The notes beneath the pieces were generated by a model, which was given only the letters and a program-made list of their open reading frames with translations, made no database searches and had not been told where the DNA came from. A stretch of 43,834 nucleotides of DNA from Bacillota bacterium. Lineage in GTDB: Bacteria > Bacillota > Bacilli > Alicyclobacillales > Alicyclobacillaceae. Where the stretch lies: contig JAJZAV010000003.1 of NCBI GenBank assembly GCA_021799255.1, forward strand, positions 1-43,834, in the 5' to 3' direction. Made by a program: the position numbers and the translations under genes. Of this stretch, positions 32,772-42,433 are shown piece after piece (the first letter of the stretch is position 1; each line of letters opens with the position of its first letter).

Positions 32772-33638
32772 CTACTCTCTCAAGTAGGGTAGAACACGAT
32801 TCATAAGATTTTGCAGATCCTTGGCCATTTCACCGTAGGACGTCTTGGCGTCGGGGTTGTCTGTCTGCAGTGCGAAGAGTTCCATGTCCGCTTGCAACTT
32901 CTTCAGGCTAGCCGCTAGCAGAGCGCGTTTTTTCGTCTCTGGCGCCTTAAGAGAGTCGTAGTACAAATCCACATATAGATTCCCATTGGAGTCCACTTGA
33001 GCGAGAAACACATCATCGGTGCTCTTCGCCCCCTGTTTTAATACCTCACCCAACAACCATTCGCGAGAATAGCCGAGATACTGCAACGATTTCTCCATCA
33101 CATTGCCGTCAATGATCAGAATGCGAGGCTCATGCTCGGACAAGACCGGCAACTGAACGTCTTTAGGGGTGAGGGGTTGTAATTCTGTTTTCTTGAGAAC
33201 GCTAAGTTTTCCATTGTTCTCAAAAACAGCGTACTCCGCATCGGAGATTTTAAAGACATCCTTTTGGCGGAGCAGCATCAGAAGTTCCTCCGTGGACATG
33301 TGAACCCGTGATAGGTTTTTCTCCAATATCTGCCCATTTTCCATGAGAATGACCGCACGCCCATCCAATAACGTGCGCGCTTTATAAGACTTCTTCTGGA
33401 GGAGAGCGAGCACCACCGACAATAGAGACCATATCGCTAATGATAAAACGGCGTGCAGATTCTTGATTTCATCTAAGGACCATGCCGCAGCGATGTTTCC
33501 AATCGTGAGCCCCACGATGTAGTCGAAGAAGGTTAGTTGGGCGATTTGTCGTTTTCCTAAAATGCGCGCCAAAATGAATAGGGCGATGAATGCGATAAAT
33601 GACTGGTAGATCACCTCGAAAGTCGTCGGTTCCTGCAT
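32772..33638 (-). CDS. DUF421/YetF-family membrane protein
   Basis: LGKRQIAQLTFFDYIVGLTIGNIAAAWSLD and C-terminal YetF-like domain. Confidence 0.9.
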   Translation of the reverse strand: MQEPTTFEVIYQSFIAFIALFILARILGKRQIAQLTFFDYIVGLTIGNIAAAWSLDEIKNLHAVLSLAIWSLLSVVLALLQKKSYKARTLLDGRAVILMENGQILEKNLSRVHMSTEELLMLLRQKDVFKISDAEYAVFENNGKLSVLKKTELQPLTPKDVQLPVLSEHEPRILIIDGNVMEKSLQYLGYSREWLLGEVLKQGAKSTDDVFLAQVDSNGNLYVDLYYDSLKAPETKKRALLAASLKKLQADMELFALQTDNPDAKTSYGEMAKDLQNLMNRVLPYLRE

Positions 33639-34223: not shown

Positions 34224-35174
34224 ATGAGTGAAGCAAGATTGTTCTCTCTACAATTGCTTCAACTGGGCTTTGTTCTTGTGGTCTCCCCCCTCATTGCAGG
34301 CGTCCTCGCTCGGATGAAGGAGTTCGTTCAAGGCAAGGCAGGGCCAAGCATTTTTCAGCCCTACCGGGATCTTCGCAAGCTGTTCCAGAAAGAGCGGCTG
34401 ATTCCCGAGGGTTCTGGGCCCGTGTATCGCCTTGCTCCTTACCTGTATTTTTCAGCACCGCTCATCGTCACGCTGCTCATCCCGGTGCTCACGACGTTTC
34501 CCCTGTTTATGGCGTTTGCTGGAGACATGATGGCGGGCGGATTCATCCTTGGACTCGGAACGTACGTATTGCTCGCAGGGGCCATGGCAGGAGCTAGCCC
34601 GTACGGCGCCATCGGCAGCAGCCGCGTTCGATTTGTCTCCATGTCCGTCGAACCAGTACTCATTCTTGTCCTGTTTTGCGTGAGCTTCGTGGCGCACACC
34701 ACGATTCCGTACATCGTCAATCAAACCCTCTGGGGCCTTCGATGGTCCCCTATTCACCTGCTTTTGATTGCCTCGTTCTTCGCCATTCTATTGGCCGAGA
34801 CGGGACGCATCCCGGTAGATAATCCTTCGTCTCACCACGAATTTTCTATGATTGATCACAATCGTGTGTACGACTATTCCGGACCCGATTTAGCTCTACT
34901 CGAGTGGGGCGGGTGGATGAAGTACGTCGCCCTCGGGACCATCTTTTTGAACGTTATCGTTTCCCCCTACGGCTTGTCCCACAGCCCGGGCCTCATTTGG
35001 GTAGCCCTGGCCATCGTGGCGGTGTTCGTGAAGTTTGTACTGCTAGACGCCGCCATCGTTTGGGTGGAGTCGTCCTTCGGAAAACTGCGCCTGCTGCGGA
35101 TAGCAGAGTTTATGGCTTCGGCGGGCATGGCGGCCGGATTGGCCGTTCTCTTGGGAATTTTGCACGCTTGGTGA
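34224..35174 (+). CDS. Hyf/Hyc-type membrane subunit, NuoH-like (HyfC/HycD)
   Basis: GPSIFQPYRDLRKLFQKE, AETGRIPVDNPSSHHEFSMIDHNRVYDYSGPDLALLEWGGWMKY; AAGGAGG RBS. Confidence 0.92.
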   Translation: MSEARLFSLQLLQLGFVLVVSPLIAGVLARMKEFVQGKAGPSIFQPYRDLRKLFQKERLIPEGSGPVYRLAPYLYFSAPLIVTLLIPVLTTFPLFMAFAGDMMAGGFILGLGTYVLLAGAMAGASPYGAIGSSRVRFVSMSVEPVLILVLFCVSFVAHTTIPYIVNQTLWGLRWSPIHLLLIASFFAILLAETGRIPVDNPSSHHEFSMIDHNRVYDYSGPDLALLEWGGWMKYVALGTIFLNVIVSPYGLSHSPGLIWVALAIVAVFVKFVLLDAAIVWVESSFGKLRLLRIAEFMASAGMAAGLAVLLGILHAW

Positions 35175-35231
35175 AGGCTTTCGGCTAACGCCTTGCCACG
35201 TTCGAATTCGTCGAAGAGGGAGGAACTGTCC

Positions 35232-35867
35232 ATGTGGGCTGAATCGCCTACCGTCTATGTTCTCGTTTTGTTGCTTGGCATCTGGATTGCCATGTCGCGA
35301 GAAACCCGAATTGCGGTGAATGGCTATGTCCTTCAAACGGCGTTGGTAGCCCTTTTGTACGGACTCACCGCGTTCCAAACCAGGGACTCGATGGAATATG
35401 TGGTTCTATTCGGGCTTGTCGTGCTTCGCCTTGGCCTCATCCCATGGCTATTACGTCGTTTTCTTCGAGGCGAACTTTATACAGCCCGACAAACCCGCGA
35501 GGTCTTTTCCCCGGCGTACGCCTTAGCGTTGCATATCATCCTTGCCGTCGTCGGCATTGCAGTCGGACAGAGCGCGCAACCGGGAACGCTCGGACTGGAT
35601 TTCGGAATGACCATCGCGGTTCTCCTCGTCGGTTTGGCGACCGTGACCATCGCGCATCATGCTCCCAAGCAGGTCATGGGAATCTTGGCTGCGGATAACG
35701 GGATCGATCTCGCTGTCGTCCTCACCTTGCGCCGCTTCACCGCGGTCGCGGACTACGCCATCTTTGTCGACGTCACGGTGGCGGCGCTTTGTCTCACCCT
35801 GATGGTGCTTCGACTCTTCGCGTACGGTTCTCAGCACGCCCATCATTTCAACGACCTGAAGGGGTGA
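35232..35867 (+). CDS. Hyf-type membrane subunit, HyfE/NuoK-like
   Basis: About 211 aa polytopic protein, position and length as HyfE; ATG at 35232 after GAGGGAGGAA. Confidence 0.85.
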   Translation: MWAESPTVYVLVLLLGIWIAMSRETRIAVNGYVLQTALVALLYGLTAFQTRDSMEYVVLFGLVVLRLGLIPWLLRRFLRGELYTARQTREVFSPAYALALHIILAVVGIAVGQSAQPGTLGLDFGMTIAVLLVGLATVTIAHHAPKQVMGILAADNGIDLAVVLTLRRFTAVADYAIFVDVTVAALCLTLMVLRLFAYGSQHAHHFNDLKG

Positions 35868-35874
35868 TTGGTGC

Positions 35875-37314
35875 ATGTGGACTTATATTTTGCTTTGCAT
35901 TCCTCTCGTTGGAATCTTGGTCACTTGGCTGAGTTCTGCGTCCATCCGTCGGTGGGTGCCGGTTGTGACGACAGGGCTGAACCTCGTCGTTGCCGCATTT
36001 GACGGGTTCTTGCCCAAGAGTTCTGTCCCTTTCAGAGGCGTGTTCCCCCATCTCGACACGCTCTCGCTGGTGGTCACGGGCATTACCCTCGTGGTCGGTT
36101 TCACGGCCGCTCTGTATTCCGCAGGCTACGTGCCGAGGGACCACCCGTCCGTGCCTGGAACGCAACCTGCTTCCGAACGCAGATATTTCAGTCTGTTTTT
36201 GGCATTCTACCTGACCATGTTGGCCGCTCCACTCGTGGAAAACGTCGTCCTCACGTGGGTGATGGTGGACGCCACCGCACTCGCCTCGGTGTTTCTGGTG
36301 GACTTCCACCATACAAGGAAGACGGCGGAGGCCTCATGGAAATACATCATCATCATGGAAGTCGGAGGGCTGGCCGCCCTGTTTGGAACCGTCGTTCTCT
36401 TGCTCGGCGAACCCGCGGCCCTTCACGATTTGACGTGGACGGGTCTCACGCACGTCGCGTCCACCATTTCACCGAAATTGTCGTCCATCGCCTTCGTGCT
36501 CGTTCTCGTCGGATATGGCACCAAGGCGGGGCTCGTGCCTTTTAACTCGTGGTTGCCTGACGCACACAGCCAGGCACCCTCGCCAGTTAGCGCCATGCTG
36601 AGCGCCATCAAACTCAATACCGCGATGTATGCCATCGTGCGCGTATTGCACATTTTGCAAGCGGGTCACGAAGGAGCATTTGCCAACCACGCGCTTGCGG
36701 TGTTCGGGTTTCTCACAGTCATCGTGAGCACGTTGATGACGACCGTGCAGCGCGATGTGAAACGGTTGTTGGCGTATTCGAGTTCCGAGAACCTGGGCCT
36801 CATTGCCGTAGGGTTCTCACTTGGCCCCATCGGCGCTCTCGGAGCCTACTTGCAAATGGTGAACCACTCGGTGGTCAAGTCGATGCTTTTCTACCAGTCG
36901 GGCGAGCTTCTGCTGGCATCCGGAACCACGGAGATGGCCCAAATGCGGGGCATGATCCGCCGGATCCCCTGGCTCGGAGTCACGCTCTTGTTCGGAATGC
37001 TCGCCATTGCGGGTGCACCGCCCTTCGGGCTCTTCATCAGCGAGTTCACCATCATCTTCGCGTTGGTGCACGAAGCTTCTCCGTGGCTCGCGGCCCTCAT
37101 CACCCTGATGCTCGTTATCCTGTTTGCCAATTTTCTCACGTACGCCATGAGGATCAGCCTTGGCACGCCTTCCCATCCGCTCGCTACGGACGGCAGCAAC
37201 TATCGCCCGAGGTGGACGACGTGGGTGCCGATGTTCAGTCACACTGGGGTGTCATTGGCGCTTGGCACCGTTTTACCTTACCTGTTGGTTCTTTCCCGAT
37301 TTGTGCGAATCTGA
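35875..37314 (+). CDS. Proton-translocating antiporter-like subunit, HyfF/NuoN-M-like
   Basis: YGTKAGLVPFNSWLPDAHSQAPSPVSAMLSAIKLNTAMYAIVR, DVKRLLAYSSSENLGLIAVG. Confidence 0.93.
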   Translation: MWTYILLCIPLVGILVTWLSSASIRRWVPVVTTGLNLVVAAFDGFLPKSSVPFRGVFPHLDTLSLVVTGITLVVGFTAALYSAGYVPRDHPSVPGTQPASERRYFSLFLAFYLTMLAAPLVENVVLTWVMVDATALASVFLVDFHHTRKTAEASWKYIIIMEVGGLAALFGTVVLLLGEPAALHDLTWTGLTHVASTISPKLSSIAFVLVLVGYGTKAGLVPFNSWLPDAHSQAPSPVSAMLSAIKLNTAMYAIVRVLHILQAGHEGAFANHALAVFGFLTVIVSTLMTTVQRDVKRLLAYSSSENLGLIAVGFSLGPIGALGAYLQMVNHSVVKSMLFYQSGELLLASGTTEMAQMRGMIRRIPWLGVTLLFGMLAIAGAPPFGLFISEFTIIFALVHEASPWLAALITLMLVILFANFLTYAMRISLGTPSHPLATDGSNYRPRWTTWVPMFSHTGVSLALGTVLPYLLVLSRFVRI

Positions 37315-37332
37315 TGGAATGGGGGGTCTCCA

Positions 37333-38841
37333 TTGAAAGTACTGACCGCGCAAGGTTCGAATCTAAAACACGTCGAACGGCAACACCATCGCATCGGTGA
37401 TCTCGTGCACGCCGTGGTTCATTTCGCATCAGAAGAATCGGCGCAATTACTTTACTTCGGGTGGATCCCCAAAACGGGTGGATGGTCTAGACTCCTGGCC
37501 GTGATTGGTCGCCCGAAACACGCGCTGATTGAGTGGCACCACGCGGCCCCAACGTTCGGCCAAACAGCGTACCCCTCGCTCTCCGCGCGTTGGCCCGCGG
37601 CTTTGTGGTTAGAACGCGAAATGTGGGAGTTGACGAAGGTACTCCCGGTGGGCCATCCGGACCTGCGGGCCATTCTGCATCCCGAGAATCAAGAAGAGCG
37701 GATTGTGGTGCATGGAGACGAGGTTTTTCAATTGCCTCTAGGCCCTGTGCGATCCGATGTCGTCGAATCGATGTTCATGCGATTTGACACGCAGGGCGAG
37801 CAAATCGTGCACATGCAGCCTGAACTCTTTTACAAGCACCGGGACATCGAACGACTCGCGGTTGGACTCCTATATCCGGACGGGCGATTCCTGGCGGAGC
37901 GCGTTGCTGGGACTTCCACGATTGCCCACGCGACGGCCTACGCTCGCGCCATAGAGCATGCCTTAGGACATGTCGTTCACCCCAAGGTGGAGCAGGAACG
38001 CATCGTGTTTGGGGAATTGGAACGTCTCTACAATCATGCGCACGACATGGCCCAGATGGCGAGCGCCGCCGGAATGACCGTAGCGCAGGCGCAACTCTCC
38101 CGCGTTAAGGAGGAGTGCCTGCGCGTGAACGGCGATCTCTGCGGGTCTCGGTATCTGCGCAACGCAGTGCTTCCATACAAGGGGTCGGACGTCGAATGGG
38201 CGCAAGTCGTGTCCACCGTCATACGGAGGCTGCGAGACATTAATGGAAGGTTTACACAGTGCCTGGACCTGTTGCGAAGAACGCCGACGTTTGTGGACCG
38301 ATTCGTGGGGGCGGGCATCGTGAAGCAAGAATGGGCACGCGCCTACGGGACGGTAGGACCCGTTGCTCGCGCTTGTGGGCAGCCCGTCGACGTGCGGGAG
38401 GATTATTTGCGGGATCGGTACGAACAGCAGGCGTATCGTGTGGTTGTCGACGAAGCGGGCACCGGTGACGGGTGGGCCCGATTTGTCGTACGCGCGGGGG
38501 AATGGGAAATATCGCAGAGGGTTCTTACCAAGGGTCTCCAACTGCTCGCGAACGGGGACTTCATGGAGGCGGGCAGTTTGGCAGGAACTCAAGATGACTC
38601 CAAGAACGACGGTTTCTCGCTTGAACGCACCGGCATCGGTCTTTCTGAATCTCCGCGAGGTCGCGTGTGCCACGTGGTTCAATTGGATCCGGATGGACGG
38701 CTGGCCTTTTGGGGAATCCGGGCCGCGTCGGCGTGGAACTGGCCTGTGTTGGGCCTTGCGGTTGCGAACGGCAACATCCAACAGGATTTCCCGCCCATTG
38801 AGGCGAGCTTTGGATTGTCCTGCGCAGGCGTGGATAGGTAA
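37333..38841 (+). CDS. HyfG/HycE-like large subunit (NuoCD fusion) lacking most [NiFe] ligands
   Basis: FYKHRDIERLAVG...AERVAGTSTIAHATAYARAIEHALG aligns by eye with the HycE L1 region; C-terminus EASFGLSCAGVDR in place of DPCxxC. Confidence 0.85.
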   Translation: MKVLTAQGSNLKHVERQHHRIGDLVHAVVHFASEESAQLLYFGWIPKTGGWSRLLAVIGRPKHALIEWHHAAPTFGQTAYPSLSARWPAALWLEREMWELTKVLPVGHPDLRAILHPENQEERIVVHGDEVFQLPLGPVRSDVVESMFMRFDTQGEQIVHMQPELFYKHRDIERLAVGLLYPDGRFLAERVAGTSTIAHATAYARAIEHALGHVVHPKVEQERIVFGELERLYNHAHDMAQMASAAGMTVAQAQLSRVKEECLRVNGDLCGSRYLRNAVLPYKGSDVEWAQVVSTVIRRLRDINGRFTQCLDLLRRTPTFVDRFVGAGIVKQEWARAYGTVGPVARACGQPVDVREDYLRDRYEQQAYRVVVDEAGTGDGWARFVVRAGEWEISQRVLTKGLQLLANGDFMEAGSLAGTQDDSKNDGFSLERTGIGLSESPRGRVCHVVQLDPDGRLAFWGIRAASAWNWPVLGLAVANGNIQQDFPPIEASFGLSCAGVDR

Positions 38842-38853
38842 GGAGGGAAGGAC

Positions 38854-39252
38854 ATGTTCGCTAGCTGGCTGCGATTCGGGCTCACAAGTGGTCGCGTGAC
38901 GACGAGCTATCCAAAGAATAGGGAGGTTCTGCTGAGGGAGCACTCATCCTGGCATACGGTGCCGCGCCTCGACGCAACGGCAGCGCGCAAGCCGACGCCA
39001 ACCCTCCAAGATGTGAAAGCATGGGCGATGCGGTGTCCAACCTCGGCGCTGTTCGTATGGAGCGACGAGTCGGGATGGGGAATCTCTCTTGATGAGGGCG
39101 CGTGCATCGGCTGCAATCGCTGCGTGGTGCCGAACGTGCAGAGGGTGACGGAGTGGGGAGCAGACGTGGATCTCTTTGCCCTGGATAGGCTTGCACTCGT
39201 GGACAGCGTTCGGCTACAAGGAGGGGACTTTCGCGATGGACAACAAAAGTGA
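38854..39252 (+). CDS. Reduced HyfH/NuoI-like ferredoxin subunit
   Basis: MRCPTSAL...GACIGCNRCV; exactly four cysteines; position between large and small subunit genes. Confidence 0.75.
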   Translation: MFASWLRFGLTSGRVTTSYPKNREVLLREHSSWHTVPRLDATAARKPTPTLQDVKAWAMRCPTSALFVWSDESGWGISLDEGACIGCNRCVVPNVQRVTEWGADVDLFALDRLALVDSVRLQGGDFRDGQQK

Positions 39253-39718
39253 CTGGAACGAGTTGGACGCCGAGAAGCAGGCGGCTTCCCGGTTACGTAG
39301 AATCTTCGGAAAGTCCCTCCATGTGCGGCACATCGACGTGGGCTCCTGCAATGCATGTGAATCTGAGGTTTTGGCGTTGTCCAACCCGTACTACAACTTT
39401 CACCGCCTTGGCCTGTTCTTTACGGCTTCGCCTCGGCAGGCGGATGTGTTGCTTGTGACGGGGGCGATGACGCCCACCATGAAACCCATCCTTATGGAAA
39501 CGTACGAGGCGATGCCCAAGCCCCGATTGGTCGTTGCCGCGGGGGTATGCGCCATCCACGGAGGGGTGTTTGCCAACAGCCGGCAATTCGCCGGCCCCGT
39601 GGAATCCGTAATTCCAGTCGACGCGTTCATCCCAGGGTGCCCTCCGACTCCGTACGCGTTGATAAACGGTATCCTTGCGGCCGTAAATGGGCGCGAAGGA
39701 GTGACGCGAGATGCGTGA
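39236..39718 (+). CDS. HyfI/HycG/NuoB-like small subunit
   Basis: DVGSCNACESEVLAL, VVAAGVCAIHGGVF, FIPGCPPTPYALING; ATG at 39236 with AAGGAGGGG RBS. Confidence 0.93.
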   Translation: MDNKSDWNELDAEKQAASRLRRIFGKSLHVRHIDVGSCNACESEVLALSNPYYNFHRLGLFFTASPRQADVLLVTGAMTPTMKPILMETYEAMPKPRLVVAAGVCAIHGGVFANSRQFAGPVESVIPVDAFIPGCPPTPYALINGILAAVNGREGVTRDA

Positions 39719-41816
39719 CTTTTATTGGATCTCGGTTGCCTGGTTCTTGATCCCGCTCGCTTTGTTTCCGTGGTTCCGCCGAGAACGGGCCCTTCGGCCC
39801 CTTCGCTGGGCGGCTCTCGCCATCGGATCTCTTCTTCAAACGGCGCTGGGAATATGGGCACTTTCAGATTCCTCCCGCCTCGTTGTCGCCAAGTTCCCCA
39901 GCGTCCCGTTCTTCGGAACTTGGCTGTTTCGGATGGATCCTTTGACGTCGCTCTTGTTTGCTCTGCTCGGACTTATCGGCCTCGCGTCTAGCATTTATGC
40001 GATTGGATTGAGTCGGAACCGAGCGCTCGGCACCGGATGGATGAGCGCAAGTGCCGTGGCGCTGCAGTTCATGTTCACCAGTTTCTTGCTCACTTCGCAA
40101 GACGCCGTTGCACTCTTAGTGGCGTGGGAAGGCATGAGCCTTTGTGCCTACGCCTTTGTGGCAATCAATCACGGGTTGATACGCGTGAGGCGGGCCGCGT
40201 TCACGACGCTCGTGGCGAGTGAGATTGGCTTTCTGGCACTCGTGATTGCCGTCGTCATGGCGGCACCGGTGAGCGGAGGATTCACGTTTGCACAGCTCCA
40301 CGCCTCGCTCGTCCATCATCCCGAATCGTTGCGCTGTGTCGTGCTAGTGCTGGGCCTCGTCGGCTTCGGGGTGAAAAGCGGCATTTTGCCGATGCAGATG
40401 TGGATGCCCGGAGCGTACGACGCGGCGCCAGCTCACATGAGTGCCATTCTCGCGGGTGGGCTTCTCAACCTAGGGATATTCGGTATCCTCCGGACCCTCG
40501 AATGGGTCGGCGCACTTCCTTCACCCTGGGGCGTTGCGCTGGTGTGTGTGGGGGCGTTGGCCGTGTTTTTGGGGTCGCTGTACGCGGTGATGGAGCGACG
40601 GCTTGGCCGGTTGCTCGCTTACAGCAGCATCGAGAACGTTGGGTTTATGATCATCGGCATAGGCCTATCCATCGCCTTTCGTGCCACTGGGGCGGCAGCT
40701 TTTGCCTCGGTGGCGCTCATGGCCATGTTGGCGCAAATGATCTCCCACGCACTGGCCAAGGCGCTTTGCTTCTTGGCAACGGGTGAGGTTGAACGCCGCA
40801 CAAAGAAGGCGGATCTCTCCGCTTTGGGAGGGTTGTACCGAGACATGCCCGTGGCCGCGATCACGCTGTTGGTGGGTTCCTTAACCTTGGCCGCGGTTGC
40901 CCCGTTCAGTGGATTTACGGCCGAATGGTTGACCCTTCAGTCCATGCTGCAGGTCTACCGCACCCTGACGCCCGTTGAGCAGATGGTCGTGATTGGCGCG
41001 GGCGCTCTGACGGCCATCGGATCTGCGCTAGCTTTCACCGCCTTCCTTCGATTGTTCGTGTTTCTATTCACGGGGAAGCCCCGCAGGGCAGCGGTGACAT
41101 TGCGGGTGCGCCAGAATACGAGCGGCAAGCTCACAAACCTCGCCATCATAGGCCTGGGAAGTGTGTCCGCGCTGTACGGATTTGTGCCGACCGCCGTCTT
41201 CAACTGGATTGGCAAGGTCGTTGCGGAGATAGTGCCATCGACAAATGCAATTTCACAAACCAACCCGGATGTGTTTGGCCGTCCCGCGGCATTTTCGTCG
41301 ACGGTCGCCCTGGGAGGGGACCTGTTTTCTTTTGCGCCCGTGCGCAGTTTCATCGTTCAACCCGCCGCAGGAGTGAGCAGCATCGCTCCGACATACCTCA
41401 TGGGGTGGTTTCTCCTGTTCTCAGTTCTCGCCTTCGGACTGAGCAAGGGACTTCGGCGCAGCCGTTTCGGGTCTCGAACCGTCCCCTCGTGGGTGGGCGG
41501 GCGCTCCCTGGATGTTTCGGAGACCCAGTACAATGCACCTGGATACTCGAATGTTTACCGAATGTTTTTCCGTTCATTGCTCCGCTTTCGCGTCAGCACC
41601 GCGGTGATGGAAGGGGCGCCCGATGTGCCCACGGAGGTGTCTGTAAACGTGCGAGCAACCAAATGGCTGTACAGCGCAATTTACCGCAGCTGGGTCAAGA
41701 GGGTGCGCAAGCGCCTGGACGGGGTTCGGCACATCCAACACGGGTTGCTGTGGGGGTATTTGTCCGCCATGGTCCTCACGCTCGTCCTTTTACTGCTCTT
41801 TGCGACGTGGAAATGA
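39711..41816 (+). CDS. Antiporter-like membrane subunit, HyfB/HycC/NuoL-like
   Basis: LVAWEGMSLCAYAFVA, GFGVKSGILPMQMWMPGAYDAAPAHMSAILAGGLLNLGI, RRLGRLLAYSSIENVGFMIIGIG. Confidence 0.94.
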   Translation: MRDFYWISVAWFLIPLALFPWFRRERALRPLRWAALAIGSLLQTALGIWALSDSSRLVVAKFPSVPFFGTWLFRMDPLTSLLFALLGLIGLASSIYAIGLSRNRALGTGWMSASAVALQFMFTSFLLTSQDAVALLVAWEGMSLCAYAFVAINHGLIRVRRAAFTTLVASEIGFLALVIAVVMAAPVSGGFTFAQLHASLVHHPESLRCVVLVLGLVGFGVKSGILPMQMWMPGAYDAAPAHMSAILAGGLLNLGIFGILRTLEWVGALPSPWGVALVCVGALAVFLGSLYAVMERRLGRLLAYSSIENVGFMIIGIGLSIAFRATGAAAFASVALMAMLAQMISHALAKALCFLATGEVERRTKKADLSALGGLYRDMPVAAITLLVGSLTLAAVAPFSGFTAEWLTLQSMLQVYRTLTPVEQMVVIGAGALTAIGSALAFTAFLRLFVFLFTGKPRRAAVTLRVRQNTSGKLTNLAIIGLGSVSALYGFVPTAVFNWIGKVVAEIVPSTNAISQTNPDVFGRPAAFSSTVALGGDLFSFAPVRSFIVQPAAGVSSIAPTYLMGWFLLFSVLAFGLSKGLRRSRFGSRTVPSWVGGRSLDVSETQYNAPGYSNVYRMFFRSLLRFRVSTAVMEGAPDVPTEVSVNVRATKWLYSAIYRSWVKRVRKRLDGVRHIQHGLLWGYLSAMVLTLVLLLLFATWK

Positions 41817-41870: not shown

Positions 41871-42269
41871 TCATTGTCCCAGTTCTTCGTTCGTATTCCA
41901 AATCCGGCCGCTGACGGTGGACACAAGGAGATCCCCCACGTACGCGAGGACGGGTCCCCCAATCATACTCGCTGCTATGTATAAATAGCTCGCCAACGGA
42001 CTATGCCGAAATAACGTGTCGGTGTTGAGGCAGAATGTCGAGAACGTCGTGTAGGCCCCAATAAGGCCGACCCCAAAGCCTACACGAAGCCAGTCAGGAA
42101 TGTCGCGGAAGGCAGCAATCCCATAGAACACTCCGAGGACGAAAGATCCGCTTAAATTGATCAGCAACGTAGCGTTTGGGAACGCTCCATCGGCTGGGAT
42201 GATATGCGCTAGTAAATATCGGAGAAAGCCGCCGATGGCCCCCCCAATGAGAAGCGCAACGTATTTCAT
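41871..42269 (-). CDS. crcB: Fluoride exporter CrcB/FluC
   Basis: MKYVALLIGGAIGGFLRYLLAHI, FPNATLLINLSGSFVLGVFYG, RVGFGVGLIGAYTTFSTFCLNT; start at 42269 with AAGGAAGGA RBS (ORF track start is further upstream). Confidence 0.95.
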   Translation of the reverse strand: MKYVALLIGGAIGGFLRYLLAHIIPADGAFPNATLLINLSGSFVLGVFYGIAAFRDIPDWLRVGFGVGLIGAYTTFSTFCLNTDTLFRHSPLASYLYIAASMIGGPVLAYVGDLLVSTVSGRIWNTNEELGQ

Positions 42270-42356
42270 TCTGATTCCTTCCTTCTGTCCGCCACGTGGC
42301 ACGTGGCGTGTGGCATGGGGTGGGTGCGATGTGCCATCGCTAGAAAAACAATAAAA

Positions 42357-42433
42357 CTCCTGTGACAATGACTAGATACGTCTCTCACAGGAGCCATCAA
42401 CCTCTTAGGTGGTTATCGGTGAGATCCATCACC
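42357..42433 (-). ncRNA. Fluoride riboswitch (crcB motif) #4 with terminator, upstream of crcB
   Basis: Minus strand GGTGATGGATCTCACCGATAACCACCTAAGAGGTTGATGGCTCCTGTGA; terminator arms CTCCTGTGA/TCACAGGAG then TTTTATTG. Confidence 0.92.

Follow-up and report, generated by a model that had tools for sequence, protein, structure and literature searches.

Introduction

Adaptor subunits of the HycF/HyfH/NuoI family typically carry eight cysteines for two [4Fe-4S] clusters, and pass electrons towards a NuoB-type small subunit. In NuoI, the ligands of cluster N6a are C1-C3 and C8, and those of N6b are C4 and C5-C7. In NDH-1, electrons move from the donor to N6a (distal), N6b (medial) and N2, and ferredoxin hands them over at N6a (PMC7021789). 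In E. coli formate hydrogenlyase the adaptor is HycF, with two clusters bound by eight cysteines and a C-terminal extension that binds metal (PMC9474812). The gene of HycF/HyfH lies between those of the large and small subunits.

Related complexes are reportedly treated by Coppi (2005) and Marreiros (2013) as Ehr ("energy-converting hydrogenase-related") complexes. Ehr complexes are spread over many phyla, and we know of no substrate assigned to them. In Sulfobacillus, the large subunit of such complexes lacks the NiFe motifs and their function has been called unknown (PMC4378227); a further description was published in PMC6349859. The passages available from two other papers concern Acidithiobacillus hyf clusters, which belong to the same family as the operon studied here: hyfBCEFGI of Acidithiobacillus ferrooxidans is given as a non-hydrogenase according to HydDB (PMC7735108), and in A. 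caldus a carbonic anhydrase gene adjoins one hyf cluster (PMC3826726).

In this study we focus on an operon in a 43,834-nt stretch of Alicyclobacillaceae DNA, the whole of which is called the window. Taken together, our results make it probable that the operon encodes an Ehr complex in which the adaptor no longer has its outer [4Fe-4S] cluster but retains the inner, so that electrons would run from the donor through an N6b-like to an N2-like cluster.

Results

The operon spans positions 34224-41816 and comprises seven tightly packed genes, all open and all on the forward strand. They encode a HyfC/NuoH-like membrane subunit (34224-35174; PF00146, 2.2e-32), a HyfE-like membrane subunit (35193-35867; NF008556, 6.4e-07), a HyfF-like antiporter-type membrane subunit (35875-37314; NF005044, 1.9e-99), a HyfG-like large subunit with NuoC and NuoD domains and without NiFe ligands (37333-38841; PF00346, 3.4e-23; PF00329, 5.2e-10), the adaptor (38854-39252), a HyfI-like small subunit of the NuoB family (39236-39718; PF01058, 5.8e-30 in a scan run from an upstream TTG at 39176), and a HyfB-like antiporter-type membrane subunit (39711-41816; NF005086, 1.3e-109). 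The ATG of the hyfI-like gene was read from the sequence, together with its own ribosome-binding site (AAGGAGGGG, 39218-39226). HyfI keeps four N2-type cysteine ligands (CNAC, GVC, GCPP), and the antiporter lysines of HyfF and HyfB are conserved, as is the HyfC loop. The acidic residue of TM5 in HyfF is an aspartate (VMVDATALA), where nearly all relatives have a glutamate.

The adaptor gene starts with ATG 12 nt past the hyfG-like stop codon, is preceded by a ribosome-binding site (GGAGGG, 38842-38847), and overlaps at its 3′ end the hyfI-like ATG at 39236. Its 132-aa product contains exactly four cysteines, Cys61, Cys84, Cys87 and Cys90. Cys61 (codon 39034-39036, in RCPTSAL) is C4 of the ferredoxin motif and is invariant in the alignment, while the other three (codons within 39103-39123, CIGCNRC) are C5-C7. 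The subunit thus departs both from the eight-cysteine pattern of its own family and, as the alignment shows, from classical 2[4Fe-4S] ferredoxins, in that C1-C3 and C8 are missing. The spacing of the remaining ligands is right for a [4Fe-4S] cluster, which is therefore predicted. Homologues, the place in the operon and the ribosome-binding site rule out a chance open reading frame. The cysteine loss is unlikely to stem from misassembly or a frameshift, as it is identical in the complete genome of Alicyclobacillus mengziensis (NZ_CP071182).

When the adaptor was scanned as a single sequence against Pfam, Fer4 models scored under the cut-off; single-sequence searches of Pfam, NCBIfam and the PDB gave weak ferredoxin matches only, none of them significant in the PDB. 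Since these scores are sub-threshold, the identity of the subunit rests on its relatives, its operon position and its fold. Counting its own genome, an adaptor homologue was found in 8 of 41 genomes of the family, the seven others at E-values from 1e-22 to 4e-10. A HyfI match at E ≤ 1e-40 occurs in 18 of 59 genomes of the order, 12 of which, the window included, carry the close type (≥67% identity). By scanning one genome per species, 80 HyfI-anchored loci were gathered. In close relatives the adaptor gene either separates hyfG from hyfI or forms a fusion with hyfI; two Alicyclobacillus relatives have an eight-cysteine adaptor and HyfI fused in one frame (L034, 7569-8459; L035, 7671-8465).

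AlphaFold2 run on the adaptor alignment gave a model with a mean pLDDT of 81, rising to 92-95 in blocks spanning residues 51-90, and with a predicted N-terminal helix at residues 3-11. The top Foldseek match in the PDB was E. coli HycF (7z0s_F, 2.7e-4), followed mostly by NuoI chains, and the alignment profile matched the same HycF chain at 2.3e-26 over positions 2-111 of 117. A Foldseek search with a natural adaptor-HyfI fusion listed mainly NuoB-type chains. Homology and predicted fold thus place the adaptor in the HycF/HyfH/NuoI family. It shares with HycF/HyfH the fold, the N-terminal helix, the xTxxYP linker, the inner-cluster ligands and the gene position; HycF, however, has eight cluster cysteines and the C-terminal extension, whereas the window adaptor has four and no extension. 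It is likewise homologous to NuoI/NdhI of complex I and NDH-1, which also sits beside cluster N2 of NuoB, but there the ligands of both N6a and N6b are kept, and here those of N6b type alone.

These comparisons bear on a first-pass annotation of the adaptor, made from the sequence of the window. It had read the four cysteines as C4 and C5-C7 without C1-C3 and C8, with the ligand set of one cluster complete and that of the other lost, and this reading agrees with the alignment of 34 homologous adaptor domains (one of them incomplete at the coordinates used), in which C4-C7 are kept in every homologue examined. It had also proposed to check the conservation of these cysteines in orthologues and the fold, and neither check went against it, the cysteines being conserved and the predicted fold being that of HycF/NuoI. 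It went too far in suggesting a re-purposed redox module: with this N-terminal helix, operon position and predicted fold, the subunit is not free-standing and resembles an ordinary HycF/NuoI adaptor.

Most orthologues in the order possess all eight cysteines, with a shifted C1-C3 spacing that reads CxxxxCxCxxxCP in several, while both the window adaptor and that of A. mengziensis lack C1-C3 and C8. Beyond this pair, one-cluster adaptors are held by type A Acidithiobacillales, by two MAGs of a group assigned to Myxococcota, and by Thermoplasmata, where homologues occur in 42 of 106 genomes and all 20 loci inspected show the one-cluster form. Across all loci scanned, C1-C3 and C8 are either all present or all absent in a given sequence; a few cysteine counts were read short by the search pattern, and the full sequences show complete sets. 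No partial set or half-way form was seen among about 30 one-cluster sequences, all of which have C4-C7; in one sequence from Acidithiobacillus there is a stray cysteine away from the motif. Because C1-C3 and C8 bind one cluster, and C4 with C5-C7 the other, the ligands of one cluster have been lost while those of the other are intact.

The Acidithiobacillus adaptor is fused to HyfI, in contrast to the separate gene of the window, and one-cluster and two-cluster operons lie about 9-10 kb apart in several Acidithiobacillus genomes. An Acidithiobacillus ferrivorans MAG (G062, locus L138) carries tandem Hyf-like operons with one- and two-cluster adaptor-HyfI fusions and a crcB gene between them. 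The passages available from PMC7735108 and PMC3826726 make no mention of cysteine loss in the Acidithiobacillus adaptor. In the literature searched, of which the Ehr survey of Marreiros (2013) was not part, no earlier account of a one-cluster adaptor came up, and we claim no priority; nor did the search return a paper on Hyf in Alicyclobacillus.

To place these forms, a tree was built on HyfG and HyfI with the adaptor columns excluded; it has some long branches and one deep row of unsure placement. The window pairs with A. mengziensis (96/93) within an Alicyclobacillus-type clade that otherwise has eight cysteines (100/100), type A Acidithiobacillus groups with a Myxococcota MAG (100/100), and the Thermoplasmata are placed elsewhere, so that the one-cluster state requires three separate changes. 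A tree with all one-cluster rows as a single clade is rejected (p-AU 3.5e-12), which rules out a single ancient origin, as is one uniting the window, A. mengziensis and the Thermoplasmata (p 3.3e-7). Because canonical Hyf outgroups have eight cysteines, the direction of change is loss. The predicted outer cluster has thus been lost at least three times, in Alicyclobacillus-type bacteria, in the Acidithiobacillus lineage and in Thermoplasmata archaea. Three independent all-or-none losses support the proposal of the first-pass annotation that the path was shortened rather than randomly decayed. Random decay is not favoured, given the all-or-none pattern.

In Acidithiobacillus, dN/dS of the one-cluster domain ranges from 0.11 to 0.51, compared with at most 0.11 for HyfI, several pairwise dS values being near saturation. 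The domain is constrained (dN/dS < 1), yet evolves faster than HyfI. A transposase-like open reading frame on the opposite strand has broken up hyfB in A. mengziensis (L029, 9366-10964), and because of this interruption the only close one-cluster orthologue may be inactive.

The genome of the window also encodes, on one contig, an ordinary NuoB with the CC motif and an eight-cysteine NuoI. It further contains a second Ehr-like operon (HyfC, E, F, G and I; G000:C175, L163, 6232-11032), in which hyfG adjoins hyfI without an adaptor. With this NuoI, the window adaptor and the adaptorless operon, a single genome thus combines two-cluster, one-cluster and cluster-free arrangements. HyfG of the second operon reads RICGADSVSH and FELCYSCSDR.

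HyfG of the window has ERVAGTST in place of RxCGxC, and ends in ASFGLSCAGVDR where DPCxxCxxH/R is expected; the four NiFe-site cysteines that define the large subunit of a group 4 [NiFe] hydrogenase are thus missing. The complex is not complex I (NDH-1) either, since HyfI has CNAC and not the CC motif of NuoB at N2. What it shares with Ehr complexes is the Hyf/complex I-like gene set and a large subunit without RxCGxC and DPCxxCxxH/R, the two motifs as defined in PMC4378227; other relatives of the operon differ from it in having two adaptor clusters or none. NiFe ligands are missing across the whole clade, eight-cysteine members included, so their loss was earlier than, and separate from, that of the cluster. 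The first-pass annotation had linked the two losses, and such a coupling is rejected by the clade-wide absence. In more distant complexes of the order (L023-L028), part of a NiFe-like motif is seen in the large subunits, which contain CGVC and have CYACCDR at their end; of these loci, L023 and L025 encode adaptors with eight cysteines.

Discussion

In E. coli complex I, a published table lists Cys74 with N6b (PMC8357420). By the ligand assignment given above, the cluster lost from the window adaptor would be at the N6a position, where electrons enter, and the cluster kept would be at the N6b position, next to N2. C4 of E. coli NuoI is, we presume, Cys70; if so, the Cys74 entry fits C4 and C5-C7 as N6b ligands.

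The electron route that we infer would begin at a cytoplasmic donor docked on the adaptor, from which electrons would enter directly at the N6b-like cluster. From there they would move through the N2-like cluster of HyfI to a partner, probably a quinone, at the junction of HyfG and HyfC, while the antiporter-type subunits HyfB and HyfF would couple the transfer to proton movement. This suggests a novel mode of electron uptake in Ehr complexes with a one-cluster adaptor. More tentatively, and with somewhat less than even confidence, these complexes may be complex I-type proton pumps of a class that arose convergently, with an N6b-N2 wire, no NiFe site or NADH module, a donor docking at the former place of N6a, and two-, one- and no-cluster adaptors coexisting in one genome.

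In acidophiles the direction could be reversed, a large proton gradient pushing electrons uphill, which is plausible because several holders bear the names of acidophiles (Alicyclobacillus, Acidithiobacillus, Acidithrix). The same complex with its single cluster would then serve outward flow, with quinol oxidised and the gradient driving electrons to a soluble low-potential acceptor. We consider this rather unlikely: for an acidophile, Ehr has been proposed to act in pH homeostasis (PMC6688271), but no acceptor gene was identified and, with the NiFe site gone and the quinone site putative, electron flow in either direction is a proposal.

The adaptor might instead be a structural relic that only holds the arm together and transfers no electrons, its remaining cysteines, and then the subunit itself, being on the way out. 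Related Ehr operons entirely without adaptor, the second one of this genome included, would fit such a course, as would the faster evolution of the adaptor relative to HyfI and the broken hyfB of A. mengziensis. However, random decay should leave partial sets of cysteines, which the one-cluster sequences do not show; moreover, the form is common across Thermoplasmata and Acidithiobacillus and the cluster ligands of HyfI are kept, which makes a relic improbable. Least probable of all is another metal site (Zn, a single Fe or [3Fe-4S]) with a structural or regulatory role like the mononuclear site of HycF: a set of four cysteines does not by itself imply [4Fe-4S] in this family, since an additional four-cysteine site of HycF was tentatively assigned to a single iron (PMC9474812), but CPxxA...CxxCxxC has the standard [4Fe-4S] spacing, and in the alignment its cysteines share their columns with the cluster-II ligands of eight-cysteine orthologues.

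Under the preferred reading, of an Ehr adaptor that keeps its inner cluster, the recurrent all-or-none loss of the entry cluster would mark the entry site as the part that changes in evolution, and the search for a donor would be narrowed to something able to reach the N6b position. The genome with two, one and zero clusters, as well as the tandem operons of Acidithiobacillus, offer natural comparisons for the role of each cluster in complex I-type enzymes.

Genomic neighbourhood of the operon

Within the window, no electron donor gene was recognised beside the operon. A gene for a CrcB-type fluoride channel (41871-42368) lies directly 3′ of hyfB, and CrcB also adjoins Hyf-like operons of Acidithiobacillus and Candidimonas (L055, L138, L139, L045); it is absent by the operon in the remaining loci searched, so that this neighbourhood is not generally conserved. 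Upstream of the operon, on the opposite strand, 32772-33638 encodes a YetF-type (DUF421) protein with a C-terminal DUF1657 domain.
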